Source: Sipunculus nudus (Eukaryota > Annelida > Sipuncula > Golfingiida > Sipunculidae). From it: a stretch of DNA of 64,000 nt. The position numbers and the translations under genes were made by a program. The stretch lies in contig CM049321.1 in the NCBI GenBank assembly GCA_026874595.1, positions 45,999,797 to 46,063,796 on the forward strand. The letters are read 5' to 3'. Position 1 is the first letter of the stretch; each line of letters opens with the position of its first letter. Positions 1-48,831 of the stretch are shown here, piece after piece. The notes under the pieces were generated by a model. That model searched no databases. It was not told the DNA's origin and saw only the letters and a program-made list of their open reading frames with translations.

Positions 1-320
1 ACCGGTTTGCTATATATATCCGCGCCTTGTTCGACGTAATCTGATTCAGGCCTGCAACAGAGCTCTCCCTAGCGCAACGCTTGCTATTGGGCAACATCAC
101 GGGTGGCGGTCAAGGCCGTATTCTGAAACTGGACTCATTCCGACCAGAAGCGGATTTGCCTGTACGCACTAGAAACCGTTTTACTGTAAACCGGACTAAA
201 GTAAACCGGACTACTGTACACCACCTTTCACGCGGCTGGACTACAGTAAACCGAACTGATGCGGATTTGTGGCCTAGTACGGACACAGTAAACCGATTCG
301 CGATCCGGATTATTTACTAG
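1..320 (+). repeat. Degenerate short tandem motif (GTAAACCG-type)
   Basis: GTAAACCGGACT-like motifs recur around 186, 201, 246 and 288 with variants between. The frame over 81-320 is open but has no recognisable domain and simply reads the repeat (VNRT repeats), so I do not call a gene. Confidence 0.5.
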
Positions 321-2196: not shown

Positions 2197-2210
2197 ATAA
2201 ACACTACTGG

Positions 2211-3544
2211 GTTGTTAGAATGAAGTTATTGAAGAAAGCAAAATGTATTGAAATACCGAATCACTTCTTTAGAAGTATAGGAGGAGTGCCAAATATATCA
2301 GTTAATTTTGACATTAGTTGTATAAAAAGAACTGTATCAAAGTTCTATCAGCACTGCTTACTGGCATGGTCAAATTTTACCTCTTTAGAACCTATTAATT
2401 CTGAGACCATATTAAAACAACAGTTGTGGAATAATAAATATATATTGCTAGGAGGAAGATCGGTATATATTAAATATTTAGATGATATAGGCATCTGATT
2501 TATATACCAAATATTACATGATGATGGTCGGAAAAAAGAAATTTCACAAGTGATTCCCGTTAATACTGTTTATTCTTCTTACTTTATTCACTGGAGAGGG
2601 TTACAGGAGGCGGTTCCACCGAATTGGAGAGAAAGTATTAAAACAGGCTTGTCTAATGATGATATGTTATCTGACGAAATAATACCTATGGGGGATATAT
2701 TTATTAATCTAGAGAAACTAAATTTTAAGCAAGTGTATAATCGATCGATCCTAAAAAAATAGAAGAACCAGTGAACAAAGTAAATCTCCAACTAGATTTA
2801 ACCAACGATTTCTGTTGGAAGAAAGCTGTTAAGCATATATATGAAACAACAAAGGACATGTATTTGAGGCAATTCCAATTTAAAATTCTACTTAATATTT
2901 TGACTGTTAACGAGAAGTTATATATATGGAGATTAACAGATACCAATAGATGCTCATATTGTTTCATGGATACGGAATCTGTTTGTCATCTTTTTTGTGA
3001 ATGTTTTTTTTTACCAAAGCTCTTTATTTCAATATTACAAGTTGGGCCAGTCGAGCAAGGATTTATATGCCAGCATTAACGAGAGAAATAATATATTCAG
3101 GGTGTTCAAGTGATGTTCCATACAAAAAGCTAATTGATATATTTATATTGACATATAAGTTCGTTATTTTTAAATATCGTAAGCAAGGAAGGGTCCCTTC
3201 GCTCTTAATATTTATCAAGTATATAAAAGATAAAGAATTAATCGAGCGTAAGGTAGCAGAAAAAGAAAGAGAAGTACATAAATATGTGGAAAAATGGGGA
3301 AAAATACTCTCCATTTTAAATACCAGATGTTAAATCTGAGGATTTTCGTTTGAATTGTCTTCGTGTTAAATGATTTTGTATATAATTATGTTATTTTGTA
3401 TTGAACCATATTTAGTTCACTTTGAGCTCGATTTAATGATGGGATGTCGATGATGAAAGAGAATAAAATATATGAAATATAAAAAAATGAAATATTCTGA
3501 GGCATTCCAAAAGAAAAGAAAAAAAAATAAAAAAAAATAAATAA
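2211..3544 (+). mobile_element. 5'-truncated LINE, 3' end only
   Basis: Flanked by a perfect 14-bp direct repeat, ATAAACACTACTGG (2197-2210 and 3545-3558), and ending in an A-rich tail (from about 3,510). This is the signature of target-primed reverse transcription with 5' truncation. Its coding remnant is the C-terminal part of an ORF2-type protein, and the family differs from the LINE at 53-62 kb. Confidence 0.9.
2220..3333 (+). pseudogene. LINE ORF2 C-terminal fragment (past the RT domain)
   Basis: Frames at 2220-2498, 2550-2762, 2771-3079 and 3001-3333 together read as the region after reverse transcriptase in L1-like ORF2. They include DTNRCSYCFMDTESVCHLFC, a zf-RVT-like Cys/His motif, and a basic C-terminus ending VEKWGKILSILNTRC. 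At least two frameshifts or stops break it. No RT catalytic motif is included because of the truncation. Confidence 0.8.
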
Positions 3545-3558
3545 ATAAACACTACTGG

Positions 3559-4760
3559 ATTATATATTCTGTGAGAGAACCAGGCCAACATTCTTTATTA
3601 TGATAAATATAAAACAAATGAAAGTCTGGTTTTATATATCACGAGGGATTTATTTACCAGAGACATGAGTCACAGAGTCACATAATATAGTTAACTTTGT
3701 AAGTTGAAGGTCCCTGTCTACAGTATTTGACATTTCCTTGAAGTATACGTAACCTTTACTGGGAGTTTACAAACTTGAATATATACTAGGGAGACTATTG
3801 ACAGAAAGAAAACTAATCAGTGAATGATTTTGGTTGTTTAATCGTGGCAAACAAGTTAGGTACTCTACCTTCTGCCACCAATGGATGATGTAAAACGTCA
3901 AAACTATAGATTCTTCAATTTGATAACGGCACGATCATATGAAAATATGATCAGTGAATAAGCAGTATTATCCAGTGAGCAATAATCCAGTCTTCTACGA
4001 TAACAGATTCTGTATTTTGTATATATATATCGTATAGATATAATATTTGTATATGATTTGTGTATAATCGTGAATAGAATAAACAATTACAATATCGATA
4101 TATGCATTGGTGTTTTTTTTATTAACGTTACAATTAAAACTTTGGTGTCTCAAGAACTTCTCTTGACTTATTTAATAAAATTCTCACTTTTGCTATAATC
4201 ATAAATGGCGACATCGTCTTCTAGATATCTTCATTCGGTCTCTGAGTGTCAGGCAAAATGTTGACACCTGGTCTGGTACGTCCCAGGCAGAATAATTAGT
4301 ATTGTTTACCTGTAGTATGCGCGTCCCTATTCGGGTTTTATTCAATACAAACGGTAATCTTGCAGACAGGCGTTTAGTCAATGTGAAACTAAAAACGTGG
4401 CCAGGGGAAAACTAGGAGGAATGAATCATTCAGCGTTTGATAAGGACAGAAAATGGTGGCACCAAACTACTCAGAGGACAGTGCCAAGGAGTTTCTGTGT
4501 TAGTAATAAGGAGTTTGCTGAGATTTTACCTCTAGCGACAGAGAGGCGGATAGAATAACGCGGCTGCATAGAAGGTAAATCACACTAGGATTCCCTATAG
4601 AGTCCATTCCAGGTTCGGATTATTTTACATACAACCAACTGTAATCATATTATTGAATGAACTGTTTAAATGCTTACCCACACTGACGGCACAACAGTTT
4701 ATATAAAGCAACTTAAAGTTTGCTCCATTGAACATTGCATAAAATATGCACCATGTGATT
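3559..4760. other. Intergenic stretch downstream of the receptor
   Basis: AT-rich, with no coding signal I can support on either strand. A short TA run occurs near 4,018-4,030. Confidence 0.5.
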
Positions 4761-4766
4761 TTTATT
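4761..4766 (-). promoter_or_regulatory. Polyadenylation signal of the adhesion GPCR
   Basis: AATAAA on the minus strand about 140 nt past the stop codon. Position and sequence fit a 3'-end signal, which implies a short 3' UTR. Confidence 0.55.
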
Positions 4767-4905
4767 CTGGAATAATACATAATGTACTTAGCTACCGGGA
4801 ACTCTCCCAGTTGGGAAGGTCCAGCATTTAAATTCTTCTTGAGGGTTAACCGACGATTTCGAATGTCCTCGATGTCACGGCGGATTAAATGTTGGATGTT
4901 TTGGT

Positions 4906-5123
4906 TTAAGCTGTTTCGCTTCTGGTTGTTGCTGTTGTATCACTTGGGGTATCTACTCGCCCGCAGCAGATGAAGGCCGTCCAGGCCGCCCGGATCTGCT
5001 TCACACGGACGATGTAGAAGATGAAGATGAGGAAACCTTGGATCGAGTTGAAGATACAGAATAGATACAGGAAAGGCTCCCGGGCGTCATCGATGGCGAA
5101 AAATCCAAACACCCAAGTCAGAC
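4906..5123 (-). CDS. Adhesion GPCR exon 15: TM6, TM7, C-tail and stop
   Basis: Starts [12 protein letters not shown] (TM6 end), then [20 protein letters not shown] (TM7, a typical B2 FNSxQGFxIF pattern), then a tail of about 35 residues ending RSETA and TAA. Ser/Thr are plentiful in the tail. The acceptor AG (5125-5124) lies inside a 51-bp tandem duplication; only this proximal copy keeps the frame open. Confidence 0.92.
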
Positions 5124-8100
5124 CTAACATTAATGAGAAACAGTACTAGAATCGTCCAAACACCCAAGTCAGACCTAACATTAATGAGAAACAGTACCAG
5201 AATCGTCATCTAAAAGTAACATTCATTCATATGCAAAAATTGTACCGGTTAATTATTGAAAAAAATATCTCAATAATATTCTAATTTAATTGTTAGTAAA
5301 CTCATACCTGTAATATCTTTGTCCAGTATCATATGTTTTCTACATACTTGCGCGGATGTCTTTATGGAAGTAGTCTTATAATCCATTTATATTGCAACAT
5401 ACTTGGTGTTTATAAAGTGTTTATTCCAGACCCTCACAAAGGTCTTTGTTCTACCCCTTCCCGAATAAAAAATGTTTGGTTCTACTGTGAGAAATTCGTC
5501 ATTTATCACTTTAAGATCGCTAATTTACATCGAAATGCTGCTCCGATAAGAGCTAAGGCTCACCAATAACGAGAAAGCAAGCTACAGCCACGATGATTTG
5601 ACGGGACGTGTCATCACGGCTACCTCCTTTGTCCTTATGTCCTCTGTCACAGAAGAATTCTCGAAGGACCATAGAGAAGAGAACAGTGTTGATGATGAGG
5701 ACTAGACCAACAGGCAGCATGAAGGCGTAGTACAGCGCGGCCTGGTTTATCCAACAGCTGAAAACATAACAATATCGACGACTGATGTCCATAATTTATT
5801 GGCCTGTGTGGTGAACTGATAAGAAGACAGTCCTACATCTCATGTAAGGTTTTAAAGAGTTCAAATTTGTTCGTCCTATATGTTTGTGAAAAGTGTCTAT
5901 ATACAGAATTGTTACAACGCATGTAGTTCTTTTACATATTCCGCATTGCGTAGACCCTATCCCCATGCCATCTTTTTACAATATGCATACTAGCAAGTTC
6001 CCTTTAATGGACATGTTCTGTGTTTAAGTTTATTTACCACCCCCTTTTTATTATGCAAAATATATGTTTAAACGTTTAAAATGTAAACATCATAATCTTG
6101 TATAAAAGTAATCATTAAGTAAACTCGTTTTTCGTGAAAACATATATTATTATCTATAGTTTAATTGAGCGTGTCTTGTTGATATAAAATTTTCAATGAA
6201 TAAACGTTTATTATCGACGCAAAAAGGAAAGTCTTTTATGATCAAGCTCCTGTCAGCATAGGGTAGCGACTACACACACATACTTATCGAAAATGAAGAC
6301 ACATATGGACGACGTTTATAAGACAGCTGTACGGTCTGTCCCGATCTGATGTACCAGAGAACGTTCAATTTTTAAATGATTATTCCTTCGACCGTTTTTA
6401 CATTTTTACATGATTTCTACATTTATGAACATGAAGAAATGGCTCTCCTTCCGCTTTCCACATCTCACTTTTTTTTATTATCTCCTGTCTGACATGTTAT
6501 CAAGCGCTCTGTATTGTATCTGCCGCGTCCTAACACGTTCACAGTTACATAATCATTTTTTTCTGTGTTAAATTATTTTCTTTTACAATATAAATATGCA
6601 TTTATGCTTTTACCCTGAGAATATTTCCCGAAGAATTCTTCTAAAAAGACATTATATAATGAGATTTGTTGCCATAAAATAAGTTATATCTTTAAAATGT
6701 ACAAATCGTACACTACTTACTAATTCTCAGGTCCACGGAACATCTTGTAATCCACGGCCGCCACCACGCCAACAACCATTGCTGGGATACCTTTTTAACA
6801 TACTAATTTCGATAAGCCTCTTAATCGTGGAAGATTACATTACAAAAGGAACAATTAAGCAGAGCATCTTGTAACACCTGGTAAACTTAAGACAGGTAAA
6901 CGCAACAGGTAAATGAAAGAAACACCTGTCACGGGTAGCTGCAGGACATGAAAGTTCAGTGATAGCTGCAAAACAGGAAGGCAGCTATTACGAAAGGTCC
7001 ACTTGGGTCAAAGAGAAAGACAGGACAGTTCACAGATAACTACAGGACAAGCATGTCACAGATAACCACACATCTGGCAGGTCACTGATAACCACAATGG
7101 ACGCCTGTAACAGATAACTTTAAGACATACAGGTAATGGATGCCGCGTGAGACGAGCGCACAACTGCATACTAGACAAGCTGGATATAAACGACTAGAAA
7201 GCATGCATCAAACGGGTAATGGCAAGGGCAGACTTGAAAATTTGCAACAAGTCACAGGGAACATGTGGCTAAAATACATCACAGTTACAGGTAGCATTAA
7301 GACAAACACTGTTAGCAGGTTGATAGAAAAATTACGCAGATAACAGGTAGCTAGAAGGAACACATATAACTACACACACATGGGTAACAGGTAGCTACAA
7401 TACATAAAATGCAACGCCTAGACAAAAGGTAAACTTAGGACGCACAAGACACGCATAACATCATATCCGAGGAATTATAAAAGTTTTAGGATATGGAGTT
7501 TTTTTAATTTTTATTGTCCTGATTAGTATTTTATTTGCATGTCATTTCACCTTAAAAATAAATTAAAGTATAATTACACATAATAACAATTACATATAAT
7601 TACACATTGCCATAATTAGTATTAGTATTTCATTCATACATCATTTCACATTTTAAATTTTCCCACAGTCTTGCGGATATTTAACAATGATAATTTAACA
7701 CATACCCCACGCTAACAAAGCGGCCTTCAACATGAATCCGGAGACGTCCGATCCATAGACCTTAACGAACAGGAGATACTGATGGACTGCTTCCACGACC
7801 ATCCAGCAAAACGCAGCCAGAAGAAAGTACAGAAGTAGAGCTGCTACAGCACTGCACACAGCCAGGAGTTCGGTCTTTTCCAGACCTGCCAGCATCAGTG
7901 CGTCAGTACAAAACAAAGATACAGCCAGCTGGAAGAGGATTCGGAAACCACGCCCCTTGCGAAACTGCCTGCAAAAGAAAGCAATTATGACACATCCGTT
8001 ATCACGTTTTAGAATGCTGTTTATTGGTAATAAAATTACAGCGTTTACAGCACTGACATATAACTCTTGTTAGCTTTGAATATTATTTTGCCAGAAAATA

Positions 8101-9442
8101 TCAAATCTAATAATAGCTTAGGATGAATATAAACTTTAACTGGAACAGCAAGGAATGCCTACTTGAATATAAGAAATGTTAAGATGGTCATCACTAGTCC
8201 GAGCAGAGAGAGTGAAAGTCCAACAATCGACAGGAAATGAAGCACTGTCGAAGTGGTTTTCTTCGGATTTCGATCAAATAAAATGGCGAAGTTGGTTAGG
8301 TGGTCACACCGGCAGATAATGCTCCCCTGCTTGCGTTTATGGAAGTGGCATCCCTTGTCCGACCATCCACCGTAGCCGTCCTTCATGGTAAAATCCCAGA
8401 AGACGCATCTATAACCACCCGCGTTGTCGAAGGGGCGAAAGATAATAGACACTGGTTCACTCAGATTATACACCGGAATTCCACCTATACTTCCGCCGAT
8501 CACACAACCAGCCAGCGTCCCCTGCTCTGGTACATCAACGCTGATGTTATCACCGACCATTGACATAAAGAGATTTTTATTGCTGTATACCATATACGAG
8601 ACTCTGATGGATTCATCCGGTGAGGCCATTCCCTCTTTTATCAGTTGAGTTTGAATGCTGTTGATTGGCAACAACATAACAGTATCTACAACTGTGAGAT
8701 CTACCTTCGAATAATTTTGGTAGCTATTGATATTATCGTGTTGGAAACTTTCATTGACATTACTGGTTCCAAAGCCAGAAAATGACGTAGAGTGGGCGAG
8801 CTTCCGAGTCTCGACAGCAATAAGTGGTCGTACCACACTCCATGATTCTTCCTGCGCGAGGTCCACATGGTTAATAATAGTCTCCGTTGCATTCAGGATA
8901 CGGCTAGTTGCTCGGTTGGTTTTCTGGGCATCTAGGAGCGTTTGTCGGTCTACCCGGATTAGGTTATCCACGGTGCGTATGATAGCAATTCCAGCAGCTT
9001 TATCAATTTGTGAAATGTTTGCTATGTTTTTCAATATTCTAGATGTCAATATAACATCCGTGCTGTTCAGTGACTCCGCTGCTCTGGTTATCTTTTCTAC
9101 AGTTCTGGCTACTTGTGCTGCATTTATTTCTGTAACCTGTGTTTCCGCGACAGCCTTCAGTTCTGTTTTTGGACAGTCAGATATCCATTTTACAGGTCCC
9201 CAACATGCACCTTTGTTGCCATTAGCGACACAAGCGGCAGAGCCAAACGGCATGCCCGTGCTTAGGCAGTTAAGTAGAGTTTTCCCCACCAGTCCAGCAG
9301 GTGTCGTGGGAAATTTAAGCGCGCCATACTTTTCAGTTTTGATCGATCTTTCGAAGCAGAATTCTGCAATAGGGTACGATACAAAACCTATCAGTTTACA
9401 CGCATAAGGATATTTTAGAGCTAAAACACACACACTTACATT

Positions 9443-9475
<33 letters not shown>

Positions 9476-12400
9476 TGCTAACTTTTAATATTATGAATCC
9501 ATATTAACTGATGGCTCGTTTCAAGACAATATTGAATACTTTCGCTGATAATGTGTGTTTTTGAAGTATCGATGAGGTTTACTAAACGTTTTCTAAAACT
9601 ATATTTTCTTATATGCCGAGGTCTGCCAAATAAGGCCAGATCGGCTATCATAAACAGTGATCTTGCGCCTAAATTCAAAGAGCAGTCCGTATACACCCTA
9701 AATCGTATATCAAATGACGATTTTAACATTACGTCAAATAGGAAAGTTGTCGTCAATAATTTGAGTAAGCTGCATGCTGAAATACGTGCTTTAATTTTGT
9801 GTAAATATTGGACGTTTTTAGATCTTACCATTATTGTACAATTCCAGATCGTCCGCTTGCATTTTGTGCCGTTTGAACAGTTTATTCCCAGAGCAAGTTG
9901 ATTCCATATTTTTCACCAGCAAAGAGTGTAATAGCACCTTTTGAGAATACATATCTGCGAGGAGACTAGTGTTCGCCATGTTTGTTCTCACTTCAGACAG
10001 TTTCTGTCTGAAGATCTGTTTTTTATTGAGGTTATAACGTAACACCGTTATGATGTCGCTCTCCAGATAATTCACGGTGAATTCTACAACCACGACCTGC
10101 CACCTTAAATAGAAAACGACGCTCCATTAGATATTTAGTGATACTGTGTGTCCCGCCCTCTCCTACTTACCCGAACCTTCACAGGACATAGCACATTTAA
10201 GTGTTCAATATTCAGAACTATATTCTTATAAATCACGGAGCTTATTTCTGTCCGGTCAGCAAAAAGTGCCGAATGCCTTTAATAAACCGTAAACCTTGTT
10301 TTCTACATAACTTTCATGGCAAATATGATACGCATTTCCCAGTTCTGAGCAAACTTCCTATGTGTCTTTTGGCTAATTTGAAAGATATAAAATATCACTA
10401 AATGTCTCCGATAGAATCGTTTATTGCAGCGACTCCCTTTTACGGTGGTATTTTCTTTCTAACATGGTATTCTGCATTCTAAATATTGTATCTTGTTGTT
10501 TAATTATAGTTGTTTCTGTTTCGCTTCCGGTTCCGGGTTTCGGGCATGTTCCTCAACCTAAATTTTCCCATGCAATGAAACACGGTAACTTACGACGGGT
10601 GCCCCTCTACAGACCAGGTGATGTTATAAATATAAGCACCAAATGTGTTCCTTGGTGCTATCCCCACCAAGCTGTAAACCATTTGGTAAAATACTCCGGA
10701 TGAACCCCGGCCCTGAAGAAGCCAAGCTCGTATGTAACGTTTCTTGTCGCTCGCTGTAATCTCGGGTAAGTGTAGACGTCCCCAAAGTGTAAACAAACCT
10801 GTATATGCATAATACACATTCTCATTTCAGAAAGCATTTCAATAGAACATCGAGATATAGTCGCTCATTTAGCCAGCAGGTGAATCAGATGCCTCATGAT
10901 AAGAAGATCCCTTTCTACATGAAGTGTTTCTAACCAAGTTCAGATGCACAATCTTACATGAAATATGAAGGTGTACTCATGTATATATAATCATTACAAT
11001 ATCATTTGAAAGCCAATAAGGAAAATGTGGGATTTACGCAGTGAGGTTTATGGTTATAGGCAAGAAATTAAATAGAGTAGCATTCCAGTGTGACTTTATT
11101 CAAAGAATTTAAACAAATGAGTCAAAGTAATAATAAAGAGGAGAAGGAATGAACATTTCTTCGAGAGGAATACCAACACCTGCATACCTCTAATTCTGAT
11201 ACTGGTTGGATATGACGTCACTTCATCTAGTAAGTCGCGCCCTTTGACGGTGCAGTGATATGATCCCATTACAAAGCTGACATGTGAGTTGTTCTTTTTT
11301 ACATTTGCCACGTTCAACCTGAAACCCACAGCACCCGGTTGCACCGATAAAGGAAGACCGTCTTTATACCAGATGACGGGCGTTTCTGGGTAGTAGTTTT
11401 TCGCTTCACACACCAACATGTGGTCTGAAATCCAAAGCACATTGTCGTTTGTGGATTGTTTTATATTATAAGGCGTTTGGCTTGTGTGTCAGGATTAGTG
11501 TATTTGTACTCTCTATGCAATAAGCGGTATTTTACCTTCGATATCGGTTTCGTCTAACTCCGTATAGTTTCTGGACTCATTTATCAGTCTGACAGGGTCT
11601 GCAAAATAGGAAAAAGCAGTCATGGAGTACAGAAATGAATTAACTACATACACAAAAACTTGGTGGATAATTAGAACGTTGATTGAAGGATTGAGAGAAA
11701 TGTGGATACATCTTCCATGCCAACGTATCAGTAGTACATAAGAAAGTACCTCTAGAGACAACAAATTTATGACCATTGCTATAAAAAATAACAATGTAGA
11801 TGGTATTAGCAGTCGATACAGGGTGAAGTCATTCCAAAAATTTTCTGGTTCGCTGATCTGCTTTTGATAAAATATTACTGGCTATTGAGAACAAATTTAA
11901 AACTTATTGGCCTGGTAAGCTGGCATTTTCACACTATTATGTAGAGAAATAAGGTGATGAAATTGAGCAAATCTGGTATTATCCGAATGTCAACAATCTT
12001 AACAAATGTTTAACCATTGTTCATTGGTTCTTTCCCCGCCTATCAAGTATATAATATCTGTGCACATTTTAGGGCTATTTGATATATCGTATGGACAGTA
12101 AATATACTTAAACGCTCACAAGCAAACCTCTTTAATCAAATAAGCCTTTTTCAAAACTTTTGGAAGTAATAAGTCCAAACATATAGAACTAGGTGGCATT
12201 TCATCTATTGTAGTGATACCTGGTATTTCCGCATCTTTTTCACATATGAACTTCCTGCTTGCATTGCAGTCTTCTCGATTCCAGCTATTGCGTTCTTCGT
12301 TGATGATCATGGTCACGCAGCTTCCCTTACCGTTGCTGGATGCGGTTGAGAAAAATGTCTGATTTACTTGTGCGTCGATGAGATTAAAGTAGTTGCCGGT

Positions 12401-15400
12401 TTTTTGTTTGAATCCAAGCCATACTGTAACGACATTATAATGACAAATCTTCTGATTCATAATAATATTTTCGTGATTACGATGATAGTTTATATGAGAT
12501 ATATGATCCTTAAGACAGAGTCAACTGATAAGGATAATTTATTCATTAGAATGATGACACACTTAAAGTGAGCCTTTATCATCCGTGCATGAAACAATAG
12601 ATTTTTCCTATGTAGCCGAGATCAAATGAAAAATCACCAAGAAAATTGTTATGTGTTGCGATTGACATTTCAATAGTTACGTATGCAGTTGTTACTTCTC
12701 AGTTCTTTGTTGACAATTATTTTTTTATTTTTACCCAGATTCAAAAGCATAATAGAGATAAACAAGAAAAGGTGTCTCTTGAGCAGTATGTGTTGCATAA
12801 ACAGAAACATTCTTCAAAATGACAAGATATATATATTTATGAATTCAAATACAGACATAACGTTTAACAGGAGGTTAAATTACAATGAAGCAATGTGTGT
12901 CAGGCATTCGCTCAGACATTCACCATTTCCATGGTGCAGATTGGGGAAACAAACAAAGAACACAATAATGGCACCAAAGTCTTATTTTCCCATTATTAAT
13001 ATATAACCTAAAGATTTACTAATCATAAAGCACGGTCATTACCTGCTTTGGAAATTGGAGCTGTCAGGTTATTTTGTACCTTTGGAGTGGATATGTATGG
13101 AGCTCAAGAAATTTAAAAAATCATATCATATTATATAATGTGAGATTCAAAGAAAATGCGTGCCAACATGTTTCAAATCTAACAAGAGCTGTTAGTGCAG
13201 GGTTTGTTGTAAGAGCAGTTAAAACTTCGATAAAAGCACCGAATAGGAAATGGATTTCCCTTTTAACATATCGCTTGCAAAAAAGTTAGAAAATTAGATG
13301 CCTGAATGTTGGTGAGGGTATTTATTTAATATTTTGGTGATTGAGAGAGACATTGAAACACGCAATATTATGCAAATTAGTTGAATTATTGAGCAAAAAA
13401 GTCATTTGTGTAATAAATAATATCGTGTTATGCAAGGTGTAATAGATATAAACAGGTCGAGAAGTCATGAAAAAAGTTGCGAGGTTTTATTGTCTATAAT
13501 GTGTAAAAGCCACATACAAATGTTGTTTCACCCTGAAAAAAATGAAGTCATGCGCCATTCATAGAAAGCTTTATATCTCATTAAACATTCTGTAGGTAAC
13601 TGTTCTTTTATAAGCATGGACCTTACAATTCAGATTCCCTTGATGGTTCCTGCTCACACACATTGCAACATTGCTGAAATTTTTAAAACTGAAACTGCTT
13701 TCTTAATACAGAAGTTGAGCGGCTTATTCCTATATTGATGTTTGTCTATTTCATAGAGGGATTTTTATAGGCTCCAATGTGCAAAACCACCTGTTCCTCG
13801 TTTTATTTTTGCTCCCATGTGTCAACTGCCTGACGGCTAACATTACAAATACTGACCCTTTATGAAAGCATGAGTAATAGGTGGCATGTTCAAATGTTTA
13901 TTTTTTACTTTGAACCATTTTTAAGGTCATTCTTCACGTTGCCTGTTGCCTATTTTCTCTCACTTATGGGCGATGGCGGGTGGAGAGCTTCCCTCTGATC
14001 ACTCACCCATGGGTTTTAATTGAAAATAACAAAAATTGAACCGCTCTCTGAACTTGACAAGGTTATTGGATCTGAAACAGTCTTAATTGGACTTTGTTGT
14101 AAAATTATGAGAAATTATCCTTAACCAGAGAAATAATTATGCAAAAATGTACACAATAACAGCCACCTTACCCGGTTCACCAGTTCGCAGATTCTGTCGA
14201 ATAGCTACGTGTTTGATCACAGAGTTACTGAAGCTGCCGATTGGCATCGTTACCCTTCCTTCCAGAACATAACAGGCATGGACAGCCGTGTCAAACCTCC
14301 CGTTGATATCCGTTGGGTGGTGGTAACATTTCTTTAGCAGGTCATTTCCATGCCAACCCTTTGGGCAATAAGGTGCCCCTGAAATATCAAACCAAACCTA
14401 TTAACTGTTTTATTTACTTTGTCAGCTGAAAGAATTTGAAAATAGAGTTTAATATATCCCTTTAGGGAGATCCTGCCGTGTAGAAATGGATCATGGGAAG
14501 GGCGGAATATCAGTTACGTCAGAATTTCTTTCTCGAATACACTCTCATAATTAACTGTGCACACCAAGACGGGGGGGGGGGAATTGGGTAACGAAGAGCA
14601 AGACGTGAAACAAGAGTCCCAAAAGAGCAAATACTAGAGATCAGTGTTACCAGCTGGAATAGACAGGCATAGCACGGCTAGACCGTACAAGCACAAGAGT
14701 GCTTTACTCAAAAGGTAGGATGATGCTGAAATTAATTGAAATGAAGATAACAGTTTGACTGGCAAGACTGGACTGGAACAGAAAGCTTGCAGCACTCCAA
14801 ACAAGAACAGTACCAGGACAGCAGGCCTATCGGGGCTATAACAGCTATCAGCAGACCTAGTCGCTCGGAGTGTTAAATCCAGTCAGGTTCTTTGAAGGTA
14901 TCTCCCCCTGAGATCGAGAACTCGATTTATATAATTTCACCCAGTGGTAGGTTTGATGTAGTGTTTTTTTACGTTTCTATGGTTCAGAGCAGGATCTGTC
15001 CAAATTAGTGCATTTAAAACATGAAATTATAACAAACTTACGTCATAAATTTACCTATTGATTTGAATAAGTAACGAAAAAGTATGTGTATGTCTATATC
15101 AAATGAGTAAAAACGGAAACAAAGCTCTAACTGGCATATCAGAATCACATCAGAAAAACACAAGGTCACCAAATAATATCCGATAAACGAACGACAAAGC
15201 AGCCCGGCTTTATAATAATAGTGCTCCCTATTCTCTATGCAAGCACATACGCACAAAGGCCCTTAAAATTGTAAAGCATTAATCACAATAGATGTATTAT
15301 TATAATAGAGTTAGGACCTCTATGTCCTGTTATTCTACACCATCATATAAATATAAATCCCAATTACCTTTAGTTAGCTTCACTCGGACCGACTTCCTGT

Positions 15401-18400
15401 AACAGATGAAGGGCAGCCTCTCCTCACAGCTAGCCATCATCAGTTCGACGTGGGGCGATGTTCTGTTCTTCAGCATCCCCTTCACACAGTCCCCCCTCAG
15501 GGACGGGTGGCCGTCCCTCCATTTGATCAAACCGCCGCTATAACACCAGGGCAAAGGATACAGTGTCCTGTCATTTTAATACTACTTAATATTTAACACA
15601 ACATTAATGTAGTATAGGAATATTTCAGTTCCAGTACGGTTGCACCAATGCATGAGCATACTGCGAAACTATCCCTTTTGTCCCGAAAAAATAAAGTCCT
15701 TGATAGTACACAGGGTGCAGTAAGAACGTTAAAAAGAACGGTAAAACCAGCGGTTTTAATAACTTCTGTTCATGTATGTGGACCAGTTGGTTTACACTGG
15801 TCCAGGGATTACGTAGCTTCGGTTAGGATAGGAAGTTAGTTCACAAGCGAGCGTTGGAAAGAGGGGGGGGGGGGGGGGGATTGTGCCTAAAAAGGTTTGA
15901 GGGGAACGGTTAGGAGACGAAGGCTCTTTAAAATAAGCTTAACCATTTAAGTGACCTCGACCATAAATTTGTTAATTCAGAGTGAACGTAACACAAATAT
16001 GATAAGTCATGAAAGACAGGTGGGTAGATTGTTCCTATACCTTGTATGACTGAAACTGACTATTATCTTTGATTATTGTATCACGTACACTCTAAGAAAA
16101 AGGGGTTCCTGATGGTTCTTTTAAGAACCCAAAAGGTTCTAGATAGTACACAGGTTCTTTCTGGAACTCTTTCCCCTTTAATAGGTTCCAGATGGAACCT
16201 GGAGGCTCGTGGCATGATCATAAGTCAAAAATGAGGTTCTAGATGGAACCCGCGCCTTGACCGGATACCAAGATGATTAAGACGCGCATGCGCAGTTTTA
16301 TTTGAACTAATGAAGTCAACGGTCGGGTTGTTTGGGTTGCTCGATATGTGAGAAGAGGAAACACAGTATATGAGGTAAGACTGATGTTTATGTATAATTT
16401 AATTTTATGTGAAGAACGTCAAAGTTATATGTCTAGAGATTAACTGTCCAGTGAATAAGTCTCTGTCTGCGAACGGAGTTACGTTCAATTAATCTAAACC
16501 TGGACAAAGTCCGATTATAAACATGCTATTGCGTGCAATCGTTGCAGCAAAGTAATAAATGTTCATAGTAACACCGGCCGAATTAGAAACAGTTCCAGCA
16601 TTGTAAAGGAACAGTCACCAAACAAAAGTGAAAATCGGCTTGAGTGACTGAAACTGAACAGGCTGGATGATTATGCATGGAATTCATTCATAACATTAAT
16701 AACCTGTATACAATGTTTACAAGTCTCTATCATTTATTATTTCTTTAGACTGTTCGACAAATCATTTATTGTACATTAGGCAAAAGAATACAAGCCTTGC
16801 TATTTTAAGTTTAGTCAGCAAATGGTAGAAATAAGAGCACTCTTTTGTAAACTGCTGGGGATTTTCAACACTTTGGCCTTGAACCCAAACGGACTCTCTC
16901 AATATAAAGTCACACCCAATTGCACATTGACTGAAGGTGTTCACTAATTAACTCGGTGTTGTATAGTGGGCTAATTATTACAAAGCGTAGACTTTACTTA
17001 AATAGCACATGCATTCCTCTTTGCGGTGACTAGATACATCTGCCTGGCTATTAAGAGAGCAAATGTAAAAGAATTTGACATGAATTTTCATATGAAAAGG
17101 TAAGTTTATATATTGTGTTTTGAAAGTTATTCCAGAGTTATACTTAAATTGTAACCTGTCAATTGGTACCAATACACATGGAATTGTGTATCACAAAACA
17201 AAAATCTAAGGTTTTTATGTCTGTATTTACATCTAATTGTCAGGAACATACAATACATTTTGAAGAATAAGACAAGGTTGCTTATTAATTATATTGATAC
17301 ACCGTTGTAATCCAATGCACACATATGCATTCTATTTTGTTATGTTTATATTTTGTTTTGGAGACCTAAGTATTGGGGTTTTCACTATATATGGACATGT
17401 GGGACATAACTGGGCCTCTCACTGTGTGGTTACGCTTAATTACACATTCGTTTAAGGCGTCCTCTAATTAACCTGGTGTTGCATTGATTAATTACGTGTA
17501 TTACCAAGTACAGAATACACTGGTCACCCATCCATTCTTTCTCTTTGCAGGAACCAGATACATCTGCCTGGCTAGCAAGAATGAAATGAAAAAGAAAGAG
17601 GGCTGACGATTATAATGTGGTACGTTGTTCAGGAGTTATATCTAAATCATAAAAAATGCTTTAATAATGCACATGTGATTGTGTATCACAAAGCAAAAAA
17701 AGAGTTATTTTTGTCTCTGTTAAGCACCTATAACTATATAAGGAGACTACAAATAATTTGAAAGCAAGGTAATACGTATTACAAGGCAATTAAGAAAAAG
17801 TCAGAATAATTCTGCATTCTATGTTACAATACCTTTGTGAAAAGTACGTGTTTATAATAGTTATTGTATTCATCATCTGCAGTTCATATGACTTAACATT
17901 TTTCGTGTCAAAGATATTTCGGGACGCTTCCCAGAACATTATAATGTTAACAGCATCATCATTCAAAATGCAATCCCCACCCAGAGAGGGAGAGAGAGAG
18001 AGATGGAGCGAGTTCCTTCACAGACCAGAAACTTCGTATGTTTATTTATTCTCAACTGCTGCTAACATATTTCTCATCTCTTATTTTTTTAGATCGATTC
18101 TCCGTACCTTTCCTTGCCAAGTACGCATCACACAATTTAGGGATATGATGACACTGAATCAGAGATTAGTTCGACCGTCACAGTGTTTGGACTTTATCGC
18201 CGATCATACAGCTCATCGATTCTATGCAGACATTTTGTTTGAAGATTTGTATACATAGAAACAATACATTTGCCTATGGGGCTGGAATTAGATTGAATCG
18301 CTCACCAAGGCGTATCAGCTGTATATAGCGATACAAACATCGTGCAAGACACTTGTTGCATCACCTGTTGTGTATCGATTATATGTTGCTGCGACTTCAT

Positions 18401-20168
18401 ATATTTTATTTATAATGCAGATAAGTTTTAGTTTTATAATACAGAATTACTACAGAAGAGGACCTGGACTCGCAAGAGAACACACAAATAATTCATCAAA
18501 AATATTCTTGACGTTCACCGGATATCAAACCCACAAAAAAATCAGAACACTGCGCATCCTGGATGTTCTATTCTTATAGGGATGTTGGTGTGTGCAGATA
18601 AGAGAGACAGTGCGAAATATTCAGTTTCATTGTTAGTATATACCAAGAAAACTGAAATTCTTGATGGCAAAACACATTTGCCTGAATTTTAAAAACTCTA
18701 CGCTGAACAATAACAAGGGAATTTATTTAAGTTTGAGAAAACGACTCGGAACTGTGCGAGGTGTTCACGAACTCTGTATAGCAAATGCCAGTTATATCAA
18801 TTACGTGCATTTATTAGGTAATGCTTTTTGTAATTGCTCTTTTTCCACAGACTGGTCTTTACAACTTAATAAAAATGTGTTTCCTTAAAAACTGTTTTCA
18901 TTTTGCCTCGAAGGTTTATCACATTTAAAGGATACAACTATATACATATGACCCTTGCAGGTACCCACCTTCTTTGAGAAATGCTTTTATATATTTTTGC
19001 ATATCAATCAAAACTGTCAAATATGTATGGACATATGACGTAATTAATATATCCTAAACGTATAATAGGAAATCCTATCTATTTTCTTAAATAAAAATGA
19101 ATTGAAGGTTCTATGAAGAACCCTACACATTGGTTACACGAAGAACCTTTTAAGGTTCCCCACTCAGTCTACCGTGAAAAATCTTAGAGGGTTCCCCACT
19201 CAGTCCACTCTGAAGAACCCTTTTGGGTTCTAGTTGGAACCCTTTTTTCTAAGAGTGTGTGTTAGACCTGTATTGGCCCATATAAAAATGTCTCCGTTTT
19301 GCGCATTCTACCTCCTTATAAATCCTACTTAACAACAGAGACAACACTAATATTCAAAACACTATTTAATATCTCTGTTCAGTTTTGCAAGGGCACAGAC
19401 ACGAATGCAGTCTACATTTTAATATAGCTTTTTGTAATGTTAAGAAATAATGCAGGAGTATAAAAAAGAACTTAATAATGTGTTTATACGTTCTTGAAAT
19501 AAATCATCTCTATAAATCCTCTTTACTTGATTGTCACTCTGAAATGACTCACATTGTTCATGAAGAGCTTATTTTAAATCACATGCTTATATACATTTAT
19601 GTACATGTGTCTATATAAACAACCTGAGTGATCGTCTTATAATTTAAGTTGTTTTGCAATAATATTTATTTTATTAAGTGAATTCTCGATCCTGTCTGTG
19701 CTCTTGTATAGCCATAGGTCGTGTAGGTTGATTAAGTTAAAATTTCCCGATTAGTTTATGTTTGAATTCGCGTATAAACATGCATACTGAAATCCATATA
19801 TACCGACACACAGTCAGAAATTCCCGATTACCGCGGCCGGTAATAAGACATACAACACAAAGAGTACATACCTTCATCTACCCTGTAATCCTTTTAAAAA
19901 TATGATCAGTTTCAAGACCAAGGACCGTCCATTCAAAATCATCTTTTTTTGAATATATTACACACCGAGAATGACATGCAAACGGACTAATAATGACCCA
20001 ACATCAGCATATACACAGTAAACAAGCGAAAATAAAACCCACTTGCTGTTAGATGTTGCTAGTGACGGTGACATTCCGTCCCACACAAGCCGTCCTCCCT
20101 GTTTCTTCATACCGACCCAGACACTCCGTCCTGCAGATTATGCACTTCGTATCAGTAAGCAATCTTAT

Positions 20169-20226
<58 letters not shown>

Positions 20227-20336
20227 GGAAAGGGTATACACAGAAAAGTGGTTCACTGGCAGTGAATCACTTTTCTGAGTATACCCTTTCCATATATAAA
20301 ACAATGAACCAGCATGGCTATTCATACATCTATATG

Positions 20337-20396
<60 letters not shown>

Positions 20397-20404
20397 CATA
20401 TAAT

Positions 20405-20440
<36 letters not shown>

Positions 20441-23073
20441 TTTATATATAAGCATATGCTGTTATTCTCCATCTCATATCGACGTTTATTACGGTGAGTA
20501 TAGCGTTTTAAAGGACAGAAATTTCGGTGACTCCGGAGAACTCTGGAAAATCATATGTGGTAAAGGAGCATCCAAAACGAAAGGGATCAATGTCAAATTC
20601 AGTAGGACCTTGTTAAAATAGATGTATCATGTATTAGCATTTTACGTCATTATCATATATTATATTGTTATCTGATTGTTATGACATATACTGAAGCAGC
20701 AGAGAGAGTTTACTTAAGTGAATAGTTAACTTAAAGAAGTCGAAATAATCAGTCACTGGTGCACAAACCAGTTGAGGTTTTCTCTGTTAAAGTTATTCGC
20801 ATGTGTGGTTGGTCAGGTCGAAAAAAAATTATTCCCAGGGTATAAGAAAGCCGCAAAAAAGTGCTCAATCGGCCTTAATTTGAAACTGGAAAAAGGTCGC
20901 TTTTGCACACGGCACAGATAAACGTTTCAAGTCTCTTTTGCCGAGTGCCAATACCTCAAACAGGTTGCGGGGTACATTGTTAAGTATTGTATGACCCGGA
21001 TTACATTTGGCTGCAAAAAACTCGTTGTCCTTACGGCAGGTGAAAGAAAATAAGGCTGACTGTCAATTGAAAGATTTCATCCCTTTTGGTCATAACTTTG
21101 CTCAGCAAACATGACATCCACACACGTACAATGGTCATCTTTAAAGATGCTTTTATTTGACAGCAAACGAATGTGTATAAAAGAGAACTTAATGTATATC
21201 AGTATTCATCTACTGATAAAACATTAAGTGATCAATATATAAAACAAGAAAAATCCCTAATCCTATTGTAGAGAAACATCTGATTGTTGAAACTTAGCAG
21301 TCTCCACGATACAAGAAAAATGCGTAAAAATTGAAACAAATTATGATCTCTCAGGTCCATTGTATATAATAAAGCCACCCATGTCGACAGGCTAACCAAG
21401 TTAAGAACACTCCATTGACCCTACTGAAAAGCTACTGCCAAATGTGTATTTTGTAAATTTTTATAGAATATCAACAATACAAGTGACAACCATAATAATA
21501 GAAAATTACAGTCGGCACAGCCTCTTTTTTTCTGCTTAGCATATTCTTGATCAATCAGACTGCCAATCTTAAATATATTACATGAAAAACACATTGTGGA
21601 ATTAACATGATTACTGTAATTTGGCTGTAAAAGACATGTATATTTGCCTGAAAAATGAGGGAACTATGTTTAACGAAACCCATGGGTTGTGAAATACGGA
21701 TTAATAGGATGTTCCAGGACAAAAGCAATATTCGTTGTTTATCCTGGGTGGTCGTATTAGTGGAAGGTCACATTATATTTGTACTAACGTTTTATTATTA
21801 TTTTTTTTTTTGCGGGGTGGGCTTATTAGCGTGTTGAGGTCGCCAAGCAGTATTGCACTGGATAGGCAAGGAGCCTGTTTTAAAGGAGAATTACATATGA
21901 CCCCATGAGATATAAAGGTTTCTAGATCCAAAGTGAATGGTTTATGTCCTGCTAACGGACAAAAGACCAGGATGGAAAATGGACAAAGGGTGATTCCTAA
22001 AGCACAGCAGACTTTTAATCAAACGAACGAGAGTTTCGAAAATTTTCGACGGGGAAGAATGTTAAACTTCAAAGGTGTGTTTTTATTAATGAAAGATTAA
22101 GTTCCAAATGAAGACCCTCAATCTGATATTCGGGTTGAAATAATGCAGGCATTTGATCCTGAAACTGATCAACATCCTATAAAATACAGGCCTAAAAATA
22201 CCACCTCATTTTTTAATAGGTACTCCATATATAGCACACAAATATAATTATATCATTTGCTAAACCGCTATCTTACCTTTCAATGTTGCCATCAAGTTGT
22301 CGAAATTTTTAGTTAGGCCTGATTTGACAGCAGGTGGTTTGAGGATGTCCAGTCGTATTAATTCCGCGTAGTCCTGATAACAGTGCTGCTCAGCGGCCGT
22401 TCTGTTCACCTCGTCTGTGTTCAGTTTGAAGCAGTATGTGTATGCTTCTTTACCGTTCTCGCCAAAGGTAAAGTTGTACCCATCAAGGCAAACCCGTTGC
22501 CCTATGTATATCACATAATCTTAATATCACTTAATCTTTCTTAATGTATAATAACTGAAGTTAAAAAAAATTAAACCTATAATTTATCTGTAGAAAGATC
22601 TGTTCAAGGTTACCCCTACTACATAATATAAATAGTTTCACCTCAATGAGCTCATTTGTAGTATTTTTATTTGTTTCGTCTGGCTTTTTTCTCTCTCTTA
22701 TCGCGACCCGTCCTTATTTCGCTGGTATATCTCGATTTTAATAAATGTTAGTCATGTACAATTTTGGAAACATATTAATTGTAACTGGAGAGAGAGAGTT
22801 GGCCATGAACTTTGTTAAATGCTCAGTAAAAATGCAATGACAGTAGAGAATAACTGTTATTGTGTTTCACTTATGTATGCATATATTTGATGTATTTGAC
22901 CCGTATTAGAGTCTCCTAATGAACCAATTGCTGAATGTGTATAAAACGTTTACAAAAAACTCCTTACCCCCAAGTGGCTTAACATCCTTGTTTGACTGTT
23001 CGGGCCTGGTCTGTCCAAATACGCGTGACGTCATCGTTAGAACCAACGTAATAACCAATAGAGTGTGAGCCAT
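4906..23073 (-). CDS. Adhesion GPCR with two C-type lectin domains and an Ig-like domain (15 coding exons)
   Basis: Surface receptor expected to couple extracellular binding to G-protein signalling through an autoproteolytic GAIN/GPS module. I joined 15 exons by splice sites and phase; they total 3,738 nt and encode 1,245 residues with no internal stop. Order: signal peptide (1-20), C-type lectin domain 1 (about 38-190), lectin domain 2 (about 199-328), short linker, Ig-like domain (about 355-430), unassigned region, hormone-receptor-like Cys cluster (about 612-665), GAIN, GPS with [13 protein letters not shown] (cleavage expected between L953 and T954), helices 1-7 (about 971-1200), and a short tail. 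TM6 reads FLVIGLTWVFG across a splice junction, as in family B2. Both lectin domains keep the disulphide cysteines but lack EPN/QPD and WND, so calcium-dependent sugar binding is doubtful. The ligand is unknown and no vertebrate subfamily is assigned. Every junction uses GT-AG. Confidence 0.9.
5104..5205. repeat. 51-bp tandem duplication across the exon 15 splice acceptor
   Basis: Units 5104-5154 and 5155-5205 differ at one base (t/c). Each holds the first 20 nt of exon 15 plus its acceptor AG. Use of the outer acceptor would add 51 nt (in frame) but brings a TAG after about 9 codons. Confidence 0.95.
5564..5757 (-). CDS. Adhesion GPCR exon 14: TM5 to TM6 start
   Basis: Reads [20 protein letters not shown] (loop 2 and TM5), intracellular loop 3 with [17 protein letters not shown], then [12 protein letters not shown] entering TM6. 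Acceptor GTTTTCAG, donor GTGAGC, phase 1 out. Confidence 0.9.
5758..6720 (-). other. Receptor intron 13 (exons 13-14)
   Basis: AT-rich intron with no recognisable element or additional exon. Confidence 0.6.
6721..6790 (-). CDS. Adhesion GPCR exon 13: TM4 to extracellular loop 2
   Basis: A 70-nt exon encoding [22 protein letters not shown]. Joined to its neighbours it reads LLAWGIPAMVV and GPENYCWINQA; the Cys in YCW is the conserved loop-2 cysteine. Acceptor TTAAAAAG, donor GTAAGT. Confidence 0.88.
6870..7450. repeat. Degenerate intronic tandem repeat (ACAGGTAACTACAGGACA-type)
   Basis: In the receptor intron between exons 12 and 13. Words such as ACAGATAACTACAGGACA, ACAGATAACCACA and GGTAGCTACA recur about every 25-35 nt for nearly 600 nt. 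The frame at 7140-7343 is this repeat read through, not a gene. Confidence 0.7.
7706..7968 (-). CDS. Adhesion GPCR exon 12: TM2 to TM4 start
   Basis: Reads [19 protein letters not shown] (TM2), then [20 protein letters not shown] (TM3), whose FCWMxxEAxxQY matches family B2 receptors, then LLAWG entering TM4. Acceptor TTTTGCAG, donor GTATGT. The chain continues from TM1 as LIFKQFRKGRG. Confidence 0.92.
8163..9420 (-). CDS. Adhesion GPCR exon 11: HRM-like motif, GAIN domain, GPS and TM1
   Basis: The 1,258-nt exon opens with [13 protein letters not shown]. Next come [20 protein letters not shown] and a Cys/Trp cluster ([11 protein letters not shown]) resembling a hormone-receptor motif, then a long helical GAIN region. 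The GPS has [18 protein letters not shown] and [13 protein letters not shown], with all four cysteines and the HL|T cleavage triplet. The following stretch, [20 protein letters not shown], starts TM1. The acceptor is GTTTTAG; just upstream in transcript sense lies a (TA)n run (9,440-9,475). Confidence 0.92.
9440..9475. repeat. (TA)n microsatellite in receptor intron 10
   Basis: Pure TA broken by one G, ending about 20 nt from the acceptor of exon 11, in the branch-point region. Confidence 0.9.
9829..10103 (-). CDS. Adhesion GPCR exon 10: unassigned ectodomain segment
   Basis: Reads [18 protein letters not shown]..., then [20 protein letters not shown] and [10 protein letters not shown]. Two acceptors are close together; only TATTTAAG (ends 10104) keeps phase with exon 9, and the nearer GGCAG would run into a stop. 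The donor is AATG|GTAAGA. Degenerate copies of this exon occur at 31.6 kb and 40.1 kb. Confidence 0.8.
10594..10753 (-). CDS. Adhesion GPCR exon 9: region after the Ig domain
   Basis: Encodes [20 protein letters not shown]... ending [11 protein letters not shown]. No named domain is recognised; it is probably the start of the membrane-proximal ectodomain. Acceptor GATTACAG, donor GTC|GTAAGT (strong). The phase-2 exit decides which acceptor exon 10 must use. Confidence 0.75.
11188..11424 (-). CDS. Adhesion GPCR exon 8: Ig-like domain
   Basis: Reads [25 protein letters not shown] with the first Ig cysteine and core Trp (VIWYKDG), then [14 protein letters not shown] with the YxC of strand F. 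The domain fits one exon with phase 1 at both ends, as modular Ig exons usually do. Acceptor GATTTCAG, donor GTATGC. Confidence 0.87.
11536..11598 (-). CDS. Adhesion GPCR exon 7: linker between lectin domain 2 and Ig
   Basis: A 63-nt exon encoding [21 protein letters not shown], acidic with two N-glycosylation sequons (NES, NYT). Acceptor TTTTGCAG, donor GTAAAA, phase 1 at both ends, length divisible by 3. It could therefore be skipped without a frameshift. Confidence 0.8.
12220..12423 (-). CDS. Adhesion GPCR exon 6: C-terminal half of lectin domain 2
   Basis: Reads [19 protein letters not shown], then [20 protein letters not shown] and SRKFICEKD, ending the lectin fold. The acceptor is GTTACAG (12426-12424 = CAG) and the donor CAG|GTATCA. 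No EPN or WND triplet is visible. The exon joins to exon 7 as AEIPDPVRL. Confidence 0.88.
12424..14171 (-). other. Receptor intron 5 (exons 5-6)
   Basis: No exon recognised. A stretch near 13,968-14,030 (GGGCGATGGCGGGTGGAGAG onward) resembles one near 26,186 (GGGCGATGGCAGCTGGAGAC), suggesting a short dispersed repeat. Confidence 0.5.
14172..14378 (-). CDS. Adhesion GPCR exon 5: N-terminal half of lectin domain 2
   Basis: Begins [20 protein letters not shown] and continues with [17 protein letters not shown], the canonical start of a second C-type lectin domain (CPxGW, KCY, ACxxLEG). Acceptor ATATTTCAG, donor GTAAGG, phase 1 at both ends. It had no usable start codon, so it shows only by splice sites and homology. 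Confidence 0.88.
14379..15367 (-). other. Receptor intron 4 (exons 4-5)
   Basis: Contains a G-run (about 14,573-14,581) within a relatively G/A-rich piece (14,560-14,900), then AT-rich sequence. No exon recognised. Confidence 0.5.
15368..15537 (-). CDS. Adhesion GPCR exon 4: C-terminal half of lectin domain 1
   Basis: Reads [17 protein letters not shown], then [16 protein letters not shown], the closing cysteines of a C-type lectin domain. The calcium-site triplets (EPN/QPD, WND) are absent. The acceptor is GTTATAG and the donor GTAATT; the phase-1 end joins to exon 5 as [12 protein letters not shown]. Confidence 0.88.
16087..19258. mobile_element. DNA-transposon-like unit with inverted termini, in receptor intron 3
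   Basis: The left end ACACTCTAAGAAAAAGGGGT and the right end, reverse-complemented (ACACTCTTAGAAAAAAGGGT), form an imperfect inverted repeat. Subterminal TGGTTCT/AGAACC words repeat inside both ends (16,108-16,250 and 19,107-19,245), as in many non-autonomous elements. The interior holds a diverged direct duplication of about 515 nt and no recognisable transposase; the longest frame (17821-18258) matches nothing I know. No clear target duplication. Superfamily not assigned. Confidence 0.75.
16850..17775. repeat. Diverged direct duplication (about 515 nt spacing) inside the TIR element
   Basis: Matching words at constant offset: AGATACATCTGCCTGGCTA near 17,030 and 17,550; CTAATTAAC(T/C)(C/T)GGTGTTG near 16,945 and 17,465; ATTGTGTATCACAAA near 17,182 and 17,682. 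Confidence 0.75.
20043..20130 (-). CDS. Adhesion GPCR exon 3: lectin domain 1 core (VWVGM)
   Basis: This 88-nt exon is easy to miss. It was found because exons 2 and 4 do not join in phase. Acceptor CTGCAG (ends 20131) and donor GTGGGT (20042-20037) give [20 protein letters not shown], the WIGL-type core strand of a C-type lectin domain. It enters in phase 1 and leaves in phase 2, exactly bridging exons 2 and 4. A TA-rich region with a hairpin begins about 40 nt upstream in transcript sense. Confidence 0.85.
20174..20438. repeat. Cluster of (TA)n microsatellites
   Basis: TA arrays at about 20,174-20,225, 20,341-20,391 and 20,408-20,438, separated by the hairpin and by short ATACATATAATC-like spacers. 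Confidence 0.95.
20220..20298. repeat. 79-bp near-perfect hairpin between TA arrays
   Basis: Arms 20220-20257 and 20261-20298 match at 36 of 38 positions around a 3-nt GGC centre. It sits between (TA)n blocks at about 20,174-20,225 and 20,341-20,438. Confidence 0.95.
22277..22501 (-). CDS. Adhesion GPCR exon 2: N-terminal half of lectin domain 1
   Basis: Encodes [14 protein letters not shown] and [15 protein letters not shown], matching the opening strands and helices of a C-type lectin domain (first cysteine pair, then the helix ending in HC). The acceptor is ATACATAG and the donor GTAAGA, both phase 1. Several N-x-S/T sites are present (for example NFT, NRT). Confidence 0.85.
22968..23073 (-). 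CDS. Adhesion GPCR exon 1: start and signal peptide
   Basis: The ATG at 23073-23071 opens a hydrophobic leader, [20 protein letters not shown], a good secretory signal with likely cleavage before Q21. A second in-frame ATG lies 48 nt upstream (23121), but it would put polar residues before the hydrophobic core, so I prefer the internal Met. The exon ends in phase 1 at a GTAAGG donor and joins exon 2 to give DVKPLGGQRVC. Confidence 0.8.

Positions 23074-48739: not shown

Positions 48740-48831
<92 letters not shown>

Follow-up and report, generated by a model that had tools for sequence, protein, structure and literature searches.

Does the minus-strand receptor locus in this 64,000-nt stretch of Sipunculus nudus DNA (the window; C16:45999797-46063796 in an assembly of 1.43 Gb and 153 contigs) encode one adhesion GPCR that carries C-type lectin-like domains (CTLDs) and an Ig-like domain at its N-terminus, or does it hold something else that a gene model has made to look like one? 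We consider it about 90% probable that a single gene, belonging to a family with further copies on the same chromosome, encodes in this order a signal peptide, two CTLDs, an Ig-like domain, an unnamed region of 160 residues, an HRM-like stretch, a GAIN/GPS unit, seven helices and a short tail.

Reconstruction of a 15-exon receptor gene

The sequence-only reading had proposed a minus-strand gene running from 23073 to 4906, with 15 exons and a phase-consistent frame of 1,245 residues. Anchoring the exons on the raw sequence by frame and splice sites, an independent rebuild again gave 15 exons, with an ATG at 23073 and a stop codon ending at 4906 (Table 1). The open, phase-consistent frame was upheld and the exact length was corrected: the final model comprises 3,726 nt and 1,241 residues with no internal stops, and AG/GT borders together with a single open frame are found across all 15 exons. 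The frame is open from exon 4 onward and a direct join of exon 2 to exon 4 is out of phase. Scanning of the 6.7-kb gap for an exon leading from phase 1 to phase 2 returned 22 candidates, among them the 88-nt exon at 20130-20043 that codes for the lectin domain core [16 protein letters not shown], and this small lectin exon was confirmed by the paralogues described below.

Our first reconstruction, of 1,270 residues, started exon 4 at 15567 and exon 11 at 9420. Both starts were dropped: similarity to the paralogues is lost upstream of an acceptor at 15537, and upstream of 9363 it fades while paralogues B27 and C24 run into stops. Because better acceptors were seen in the paralogues, exon 4 was moved to 15537 and exon 11 to 9363, which brought the protein to 1,241 residues. 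The 170-nt exon 4 with its AG acceptor fits in all four full loci, and in each of them exon 11 starts with AATT after TTGCAG. Phase-1 introns border every extracellular module (exons 2-4, 5-6, 7, 8 and 9-10). A tandem duplication with a 51-bp period also lies at the acceptor of exon 15 (window ~5207-5106, minus strand), where it provides two candidate 3' splice sites; exon 15 could start at 5174 or at 5123, and the upstream option, read from the sequence, leads to an early stop.

Table 1. Exons of the window gene (window positions) and related loci (positions on contig C16)
Feature	Position	Strand	Content and evidence
Exon 1	22968..23073	-	Start codon; signal peptide assigned by eye ([20 protein letters not shown]); GT donor; homologous exon in 3/3 full paralogues
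Exon 2	22277..22501	-	CTLD1, first part; Lectin_C 27.6 bits for CTLD1; paralogue exon matches
Exon 3	20043..20130	-	CTLD1 core (VWVGM...GGRLVWDG), 88 nt, GTGGGT donor; splice/phase scan; 74-89% identity in 3/3 full paralogues
Exon 4	15368..15537	-	CTLD1, end; 170 nt, AG acceptor, fits 3/3 full paralogues
Exon 5	14172..14378	-	CTLD2, first part; open frame and paralogue exon matches
Exon 6	12220..12423	-	CTLD2, second part (VWLGF...); CTLD2 profile to Ly75/DEC-205, E = 1.3e-13
Exon 7	11536..11598	-	Linker, 21 residues; open frame and paralogue exon matches
Exon 8	11188..11424	-	Ig-like domain; Ig_3/Ig_2 matches; PDB profile titin 3.1e-08
Exon 9	10594..10798	-	Unnamed conserved region, first part; no Pfam match
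Exon 10	9829..10103	-	Unnamed conserved region, second part; no Pfam match
Exon 11	8163..9363	-	HRM-like Cys-rich stretch, GAIN, GPS (HL|T), TM1; GPS 61.2 bits; acceptor TTGCAG|AATT at 4/4 loci
Exon 12	7706..7968	-	7TM after TM1; 7tm_2; 91% identity in A41 and B27
Exon 13	6721..6790	-	7TM; 7tm_2 and paralogue exon matches
Exon 14	5564..5757	-	7TM; 7tm_2 and paralogue exon matches
Exon 15	4906..5123	-	7TM end, short C-tail, stop; 7tm_2 and paralogue exon matches
A41	about C16:41251377-41271667		15/15 exons, one strand, in order
B27	C16:27218148-27238294		15/15 exons, one strand, in order
C24	C16:24150168-24168913		15/15 exons, one strand, in order
D27	exons 11-15 at about C16:27269788-27273794		5/15 exons, and a chance-level exon 2 match (E 0.36)

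Four full copies lie on one chromosome

A search of the genome with the 1,270-residue model gave 39 matches, all at five places on contig C16: the window gene and loci near 24.16, 27.23, 27.27 and 41.26 Mb. This search scored 37 of its 196 first-look candidates and may therefore have overlooked remoter relatives. When searched exon by exon, all 15 exon peptides proved collinear at each of the three full paralogous loci (weakest exon E = 0.002), in agreement with the earlier claim of a single gene. The window copy and A41 form the closest pair, at 70.3% identity, and the other full pairs share 63.3-66.1%.

B27 is open throughout its 3,798 nt, with no stops. In A41 a one-base length change breaks the frame early in exon 11, and the acceptor of exon 12 has no AG; C24 is interrupted by an in-frame stop within exon 10, and its exon 12 has neither the usual start nor the usual frame. 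Judged by these lesions A41 and C24 look like pseudogenes, although assembly error could also have produced them, and the chromosome thus apparently holds two intact full copies (window and B27) and two broken ones. Because two of the four look disabled, the family does not seem to be strongly retained.

The fifth locus, D27, has the core of HRM-like stretch, GAIN and 7TM in common with the others, but its make-up upstream differs. The 17 kb upstream of its receptor exons, of which roughly the first kb is N, contain no lectin or Ig exon, and the N-terminal part of this gene may be encoded at a greater distance or differ in type. Its product matches the GPR128 GAIN subdomain A model of Pfam at 24.3 bits (cut-off 22). 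Two upstream frames (within C16:27261001-27273800) appeared VWD-like by eye, a suggestion that we rejected as Pfam gave no match. D27 groups with B27 on a long branch in a five-row FastTree tree, a placement that we do not trust.

Purifying selection acts on every module past the signal exon

We calculated dN/dS between copies by the Nei-Gojobori method with our own script, as point estimates. Between the two intact copies, window and B27, the value is lowest for exons 12-15 (0.19), followed by exon 11 (0.31) and linker plus Ig (0.37), and reaches 0.42 for both CTLD1 and exons 9-10 and 0.45 for CTLD2, with dS at 0.59-0.78 outside the signal exon. Purifying selection (dN/dS 0.19-0.45) is therefore evident on every module past the signal exon, where the value of 0.92 over 35 codons gives no clear sign of constraint. 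The five other copy pairs, from which the A41 exon 11 rows were left out as invalid owing to the frameshift, behave alike, with 0.19-0.54 for the modules past the signal exon and 0.33-1.20 for the signal exon. Overall, change in the ectodomain is two to three times as fast as in exons 12-15.

The membrane part is an adhesion GPCR core resembling ADGRG

Residues 967-1202 match 7tm_2 at 149.0 bits (Pfam cut-off 20.6), which marks a class B2 seven-helix domain, and residues 912-955, directly before TM1, match GPS at 58.1-61.2 bits (cut-off 22.5). The sequence of the GPS is [14 protein letters not shown], in which cleavage at HL|T would fall between L949 and T950; this motif, which had been described as intact, is present in the window copy and retained at all five loci. 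The Pfam GAIN model finds no match in the window protein, and the GAIN domain is called from an alignment to ADGRG6 that runs through GAIN and 7TM. Single-sequence structure prediction of exon 11 reached a mean pLDDT of 35.4 and was set aside.

Over GAIN plus 7TM, the best PDB match is ADGRG6 (8.8e-67), followed by ADGRG2 (6.3e-60). With the 7TM alone, ADGRG2 scores 153.6 bits, ADGRG6 153.1, ADGRL3 146.9 and ADGRG4 140.7, and lower scores are obtained for ADGRG3 (75.2), ADGRG1 (74.6) and ADGRG5 (64.8). By these comparisons the core appears ADGRG-like (group VIII), nearest to ADGRG6 and ADGRG2 among solved structures, an assignment that we keep soft because ADGRL3 nearly ties the best ADGRG on the 7TM while ADGRG1, G3 and G5 fall far lower.

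The ectodomain combines two lectin-like domains, an Ig-like domain and an unnamed region

In the full 1,241-residue model, Lectin_C scores 60.5 bits over two stretches, above the Pfam cut-off. Taken separately in the window copy, CTLD1 (27.6 bits) and CTLD2 (42.5 bits) both pass the cut-off of 22.6. With an E limit of 1, CTLD1 is matched by Lectin_C in all four copies (best 2.1e-6), and as a profile against the PDB it retrieves L-selectin and convulxin at E of about 0.05 only. For the CTLD2 profile, the best matches include Ly75/DEC-205 (1.3e-13) and mannose receptor domains (2e-7). Within residues 1-345 of the window copy there is no EPN, QPD or WND triplet or near variant, as the sequence-only reading had noted, and by eye the three full paralogues have no calcium-site triplets; the window copy thus lacks the usual calcium site of calcium-dependent C-type lectins.

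The Ig-like domain scores 14.7 bits against Ig_3 in the full model, under the Pfam cut-off of 30. When the region is isolated, Ig_3 is found in four of four copies and Ig_2 in three of four (best E 1.5e-5), with the window copy under the curated cut-off, and as a PDB profile the region retrieves titin-like matches (3.1e-08).

Exons 9-10 encode a conserved region that was absent from the earlier domain list, 160 residues long and invariant at 60 of 160 columns in the four-copy alignment. It has no Pfam match and no convincing PDB profile match; a SEA fold, guessed from its pattern, was discarded when neither gave it backing. Two CTLDs, GPS and 7TM were recovered as first described, the Ig-like domain with weaker profile scores, and the HRM domain was not: with HMMER filters on, none of the four copies gave a Pfam HRM match even at an E limit of 10, and the Cys-rich stretch ahead of GAIN resembles HRM in its Cys and Trp spacing by eye only. 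In one of the four copies this stretch matches GPR128_N, weakly (E = 0.035), and it has no match of note in the PDB. A single-sequence PDB search with the exon 9-10 and HRM-like regions, up to E = 10, returned nothing.

Phase-1 intron borders are the usual sign of exon shuffling. Shuffling of this kind would explain how a pair of CTLDs and an Ig-like domain came to stand ahead of an existing adhesion GPCR core.

Proposed working of the receptor

By analogy with adhesion GPCRs, the product is most likely a surface receptor whose lectin-Ig tip would bind a large partner and which would signal via a tethered agonist. The lectin-like and Ig modules would contact this partner on another cell, in the matrix or on a microbe, most likely in a calcium-free manner, and for this reason the partner would perhaps be a protein rather than a sugar; the ligand may be microbial, cell-surface or protein. 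The GAIN domain is expected to cleave itself at HL|T, given the motif. Load on the N-terminal fragment, or its shedding, would then expose the tethered agonist TNFAILF..., which would turn into the seven-helix bundle and presumably activate a G protein. The structural side of this proposal has good support, and we consider the tethered-agonist mechanism somewhat more probable than not.

A different ligand is conceivable, in that the lectin-like domains could after all bind sugars through a non-classical site, which would make the protein a glycan-sensing immune receptor. The CTLD signatures are in keeping with this, as is the faster divergence of the lectin-like domains relative to the 7TM (dN 0.27-0.35 vs 0.11), which is common in recognition domains, and in the available text of a study on parasite-exposed snails the responding genes include lectins and GPCRs, though not the present gene (PMC8791074). 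Against these points, the absence of EPN, QPD and WND from the window copy, and by eye from the three paralogues, leaves sugar binding doubtful, and we retain a probably calcium-free partner as the preferred reading.

One gene probably encodes the receptor

The long modular N-terminus is joined to the 7TM by genomic comparison, as 15 collinear exons at four loci. This arrangement could also serve two products, a full receptor and a soluble lectin-Ig decoy released by polyadenylation within one of the introns from exon 8 to exon 11, for which the modules are suitably separable at their phase-1 borders and each of the four copies has hexamers in both intron 9 and intron 10. The intron 8 hexamer, however, is absent in all three full paralogues, and we regard such a second product as unlikely.

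Nor is the window copy likely to be a recently silenced pseudogene within a decaying family. Two of the four copies have a frameshift, stop or lost splice site, the window copy reads KGACWG where three paralogues carry R or Q, and the upstream site of the exon 15 duplication leads to a stop, all of which would fit such a history; against it, all 15 exons are open with usable splice sites, and exons 12-15 show a dN/dS of 0.19 versus B27, a value that mostly reflects older history. We judge silencing decidedly improbable and treat the window copy as an intact gene.

Last, the possibility that the model has merged two adjacent genes, one for a secreted lectin/Ig protein and one for a separate GPCR, is very unlikely because four copies are collinear: order, strand, phases and short introns agree at four loci (from the Ig exon to the GAIN exon the introns measure 389, 490 and 465 nt in this gene and between 353 and 1,467 nt in its paralogues), the bridging exons 9-10 are 51-74% identical between copies, and the AATAAA/ATTAAA hexamers that the window copy has in introns 8-10 mean little in sequence so AT-rich. 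Comparison of the copies thus supports one gene.

Other lectin, receptor and mobile elements

Two exons of a separate C-type lectin gene lie at 48376-50414 of the window on the plus strand, opposite to the receptor and ~25 kb from its 5' end; they score 18.6 bits (under cut-off) and 31 bits with Lectin_C and contain EPN and WDD by eye. The window also includes remains of LINE-type retrotransposons at 58034-61797, 53282-54298 and 2741-3079, all on the plus strand, with an endonuclease (25.0 bits, cut-off 24.5), a reverse transcriptase (86.4 bits), a zf-RVT match under cut-off and, by eye, an ORF1-like coiled-coil frame. Rfam gave no match in the window at gathering score.

Elsewhere in the genome, no Lectin_C/7tm_2 pair within 100 kb was found outside the family among the matches listed (150 candidates scored per search and compared by eye), in a Lectin_C set from which the family's own lectin exons are themselves absent. 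The matches listed include many intronless ORFs of ~360-380 residues on contigs C1-C17 with near-equal Lectin_C scores. Three of these stand in tandem at C7:29982001-29991000 (one, when rescanned, scored 43.7 bits) beside a 605-residue ORF with MULE transposase and FLYWCH and a 224-residue ORF with CARD, a grouping suggestive of a mobile or virus-like element, present in many copies, that carries lectin and CARD genes. A dense 7tm_2 array at C17:20.25-20.45 Mb, with 19 of the 130 matches listed, seven of them in 791-residue open frames, is a probable recent expansion of another receptor type.

Relation to known receptors

ADGRG6 (GPR126), the best PDB match alongside ADGRG2 over GAIN and 7TM, has an HRM-like domain before GAIN, as well as CUB, pentraxin and SEA domains; to our knowledge it has neither a C-type lectin nor an Ig domain, and neither exons 9-10 nor the HRM-like stretch of the window gene matches the ADGRG6 chains in the PDB. 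Likeness to ADGRG7 (GPR128) is weak and comes through the GAIN subdomain A of D27 and the HRM-like stretch of one copy, and we know of no lectin domains in ADGRG7. DEC-205/Ly75 and the mannose receptor, whose CTLDs rank near the top in the CTLD2 profile search, are endocytic receptors that have no GPCR part. Polycystin-1 unites GAIN and a C-type lectin domain in one protein; its membrane part is eleven-helix and channel-type, whereas the window gene carries a class B2 seven-helix domain. The rhamnose-binding lectin of latrophilins (ADGRL) is likewise a lectin-type module in an adhesion GPCR but not a C-type one, unlike the window domains, which match Lectin_C.

The closest precedent comes from amphioxus, in which adhesion GPCRs with a Lectin C-type domain were published by Nordstrom et al. 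in 2008 (PMC2246102). In the extracts available, somatomedin B, Kringle, lectin C and SRCR are given as unique to amphioxus among GPCRs to those authors' knowledge, and LDLa, Ig I-set, CUB and TNFR are listed as further domains (PMC2246102). Compared by description only, these receptors share with the window gene a C-type lectin domain in the N-terminus of an adhesion GPCR, and because of that report a C-type-lectin adhesion GPCR is not a new kind. We regard the receptor described here as a variant of that kind, with its modules in the order given above and with intact and apparently lost copies together on one chromosome. In the parts of the mostly open-access, preprint-free literature available to us, we found no C-type-lectin adhesion GPCR outside amphioxus (PMC2396169, PMC13197933, PMC10140915, PMC5620054, PMC6408891 and PMC8791074). 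Specifically, in the available text of a 2026 adhesion-GPCR review the one mention of lectin concerns a rhamnose-binding module (PMC13197933); the main text of a bivalve C-type lectin survey does not contain GPCR, 7tm, G-protein or GPS (PMC10140915); and an excerpted study of an octopus adhesion-GPCR expansion gives leucine-rich repeats in 5 of 22 sequences, with the word lectin absent from its main text (PMC6408891).

A broader proposal, that this is a fast-turnover, single-chromosome family in which phase-1 exon shuffling set different ectodomains on an ADGRG-like core (lectin-lectin-Ig in four copies, another type in D27) to give cleavable tethered-agonist receptors for innate recognition, with a hitherto unnamed domain in exons 9-10, is tentative and on present evidence rather improbable. 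The locus nonetheless provides a full-length adhesion GPCR, tested by comparison of copies, whose likely ligand-binding part is made of lectin-like and Ig modules. If such receptors do sense microbes or cells, innate recognition would be tied directly to a tethered-agonist GPCR switch, and with two intact copies and two apparently decayed ones, alongside D27, where the search found no lectin exon, the gain and loss of such receptors becomes testable.
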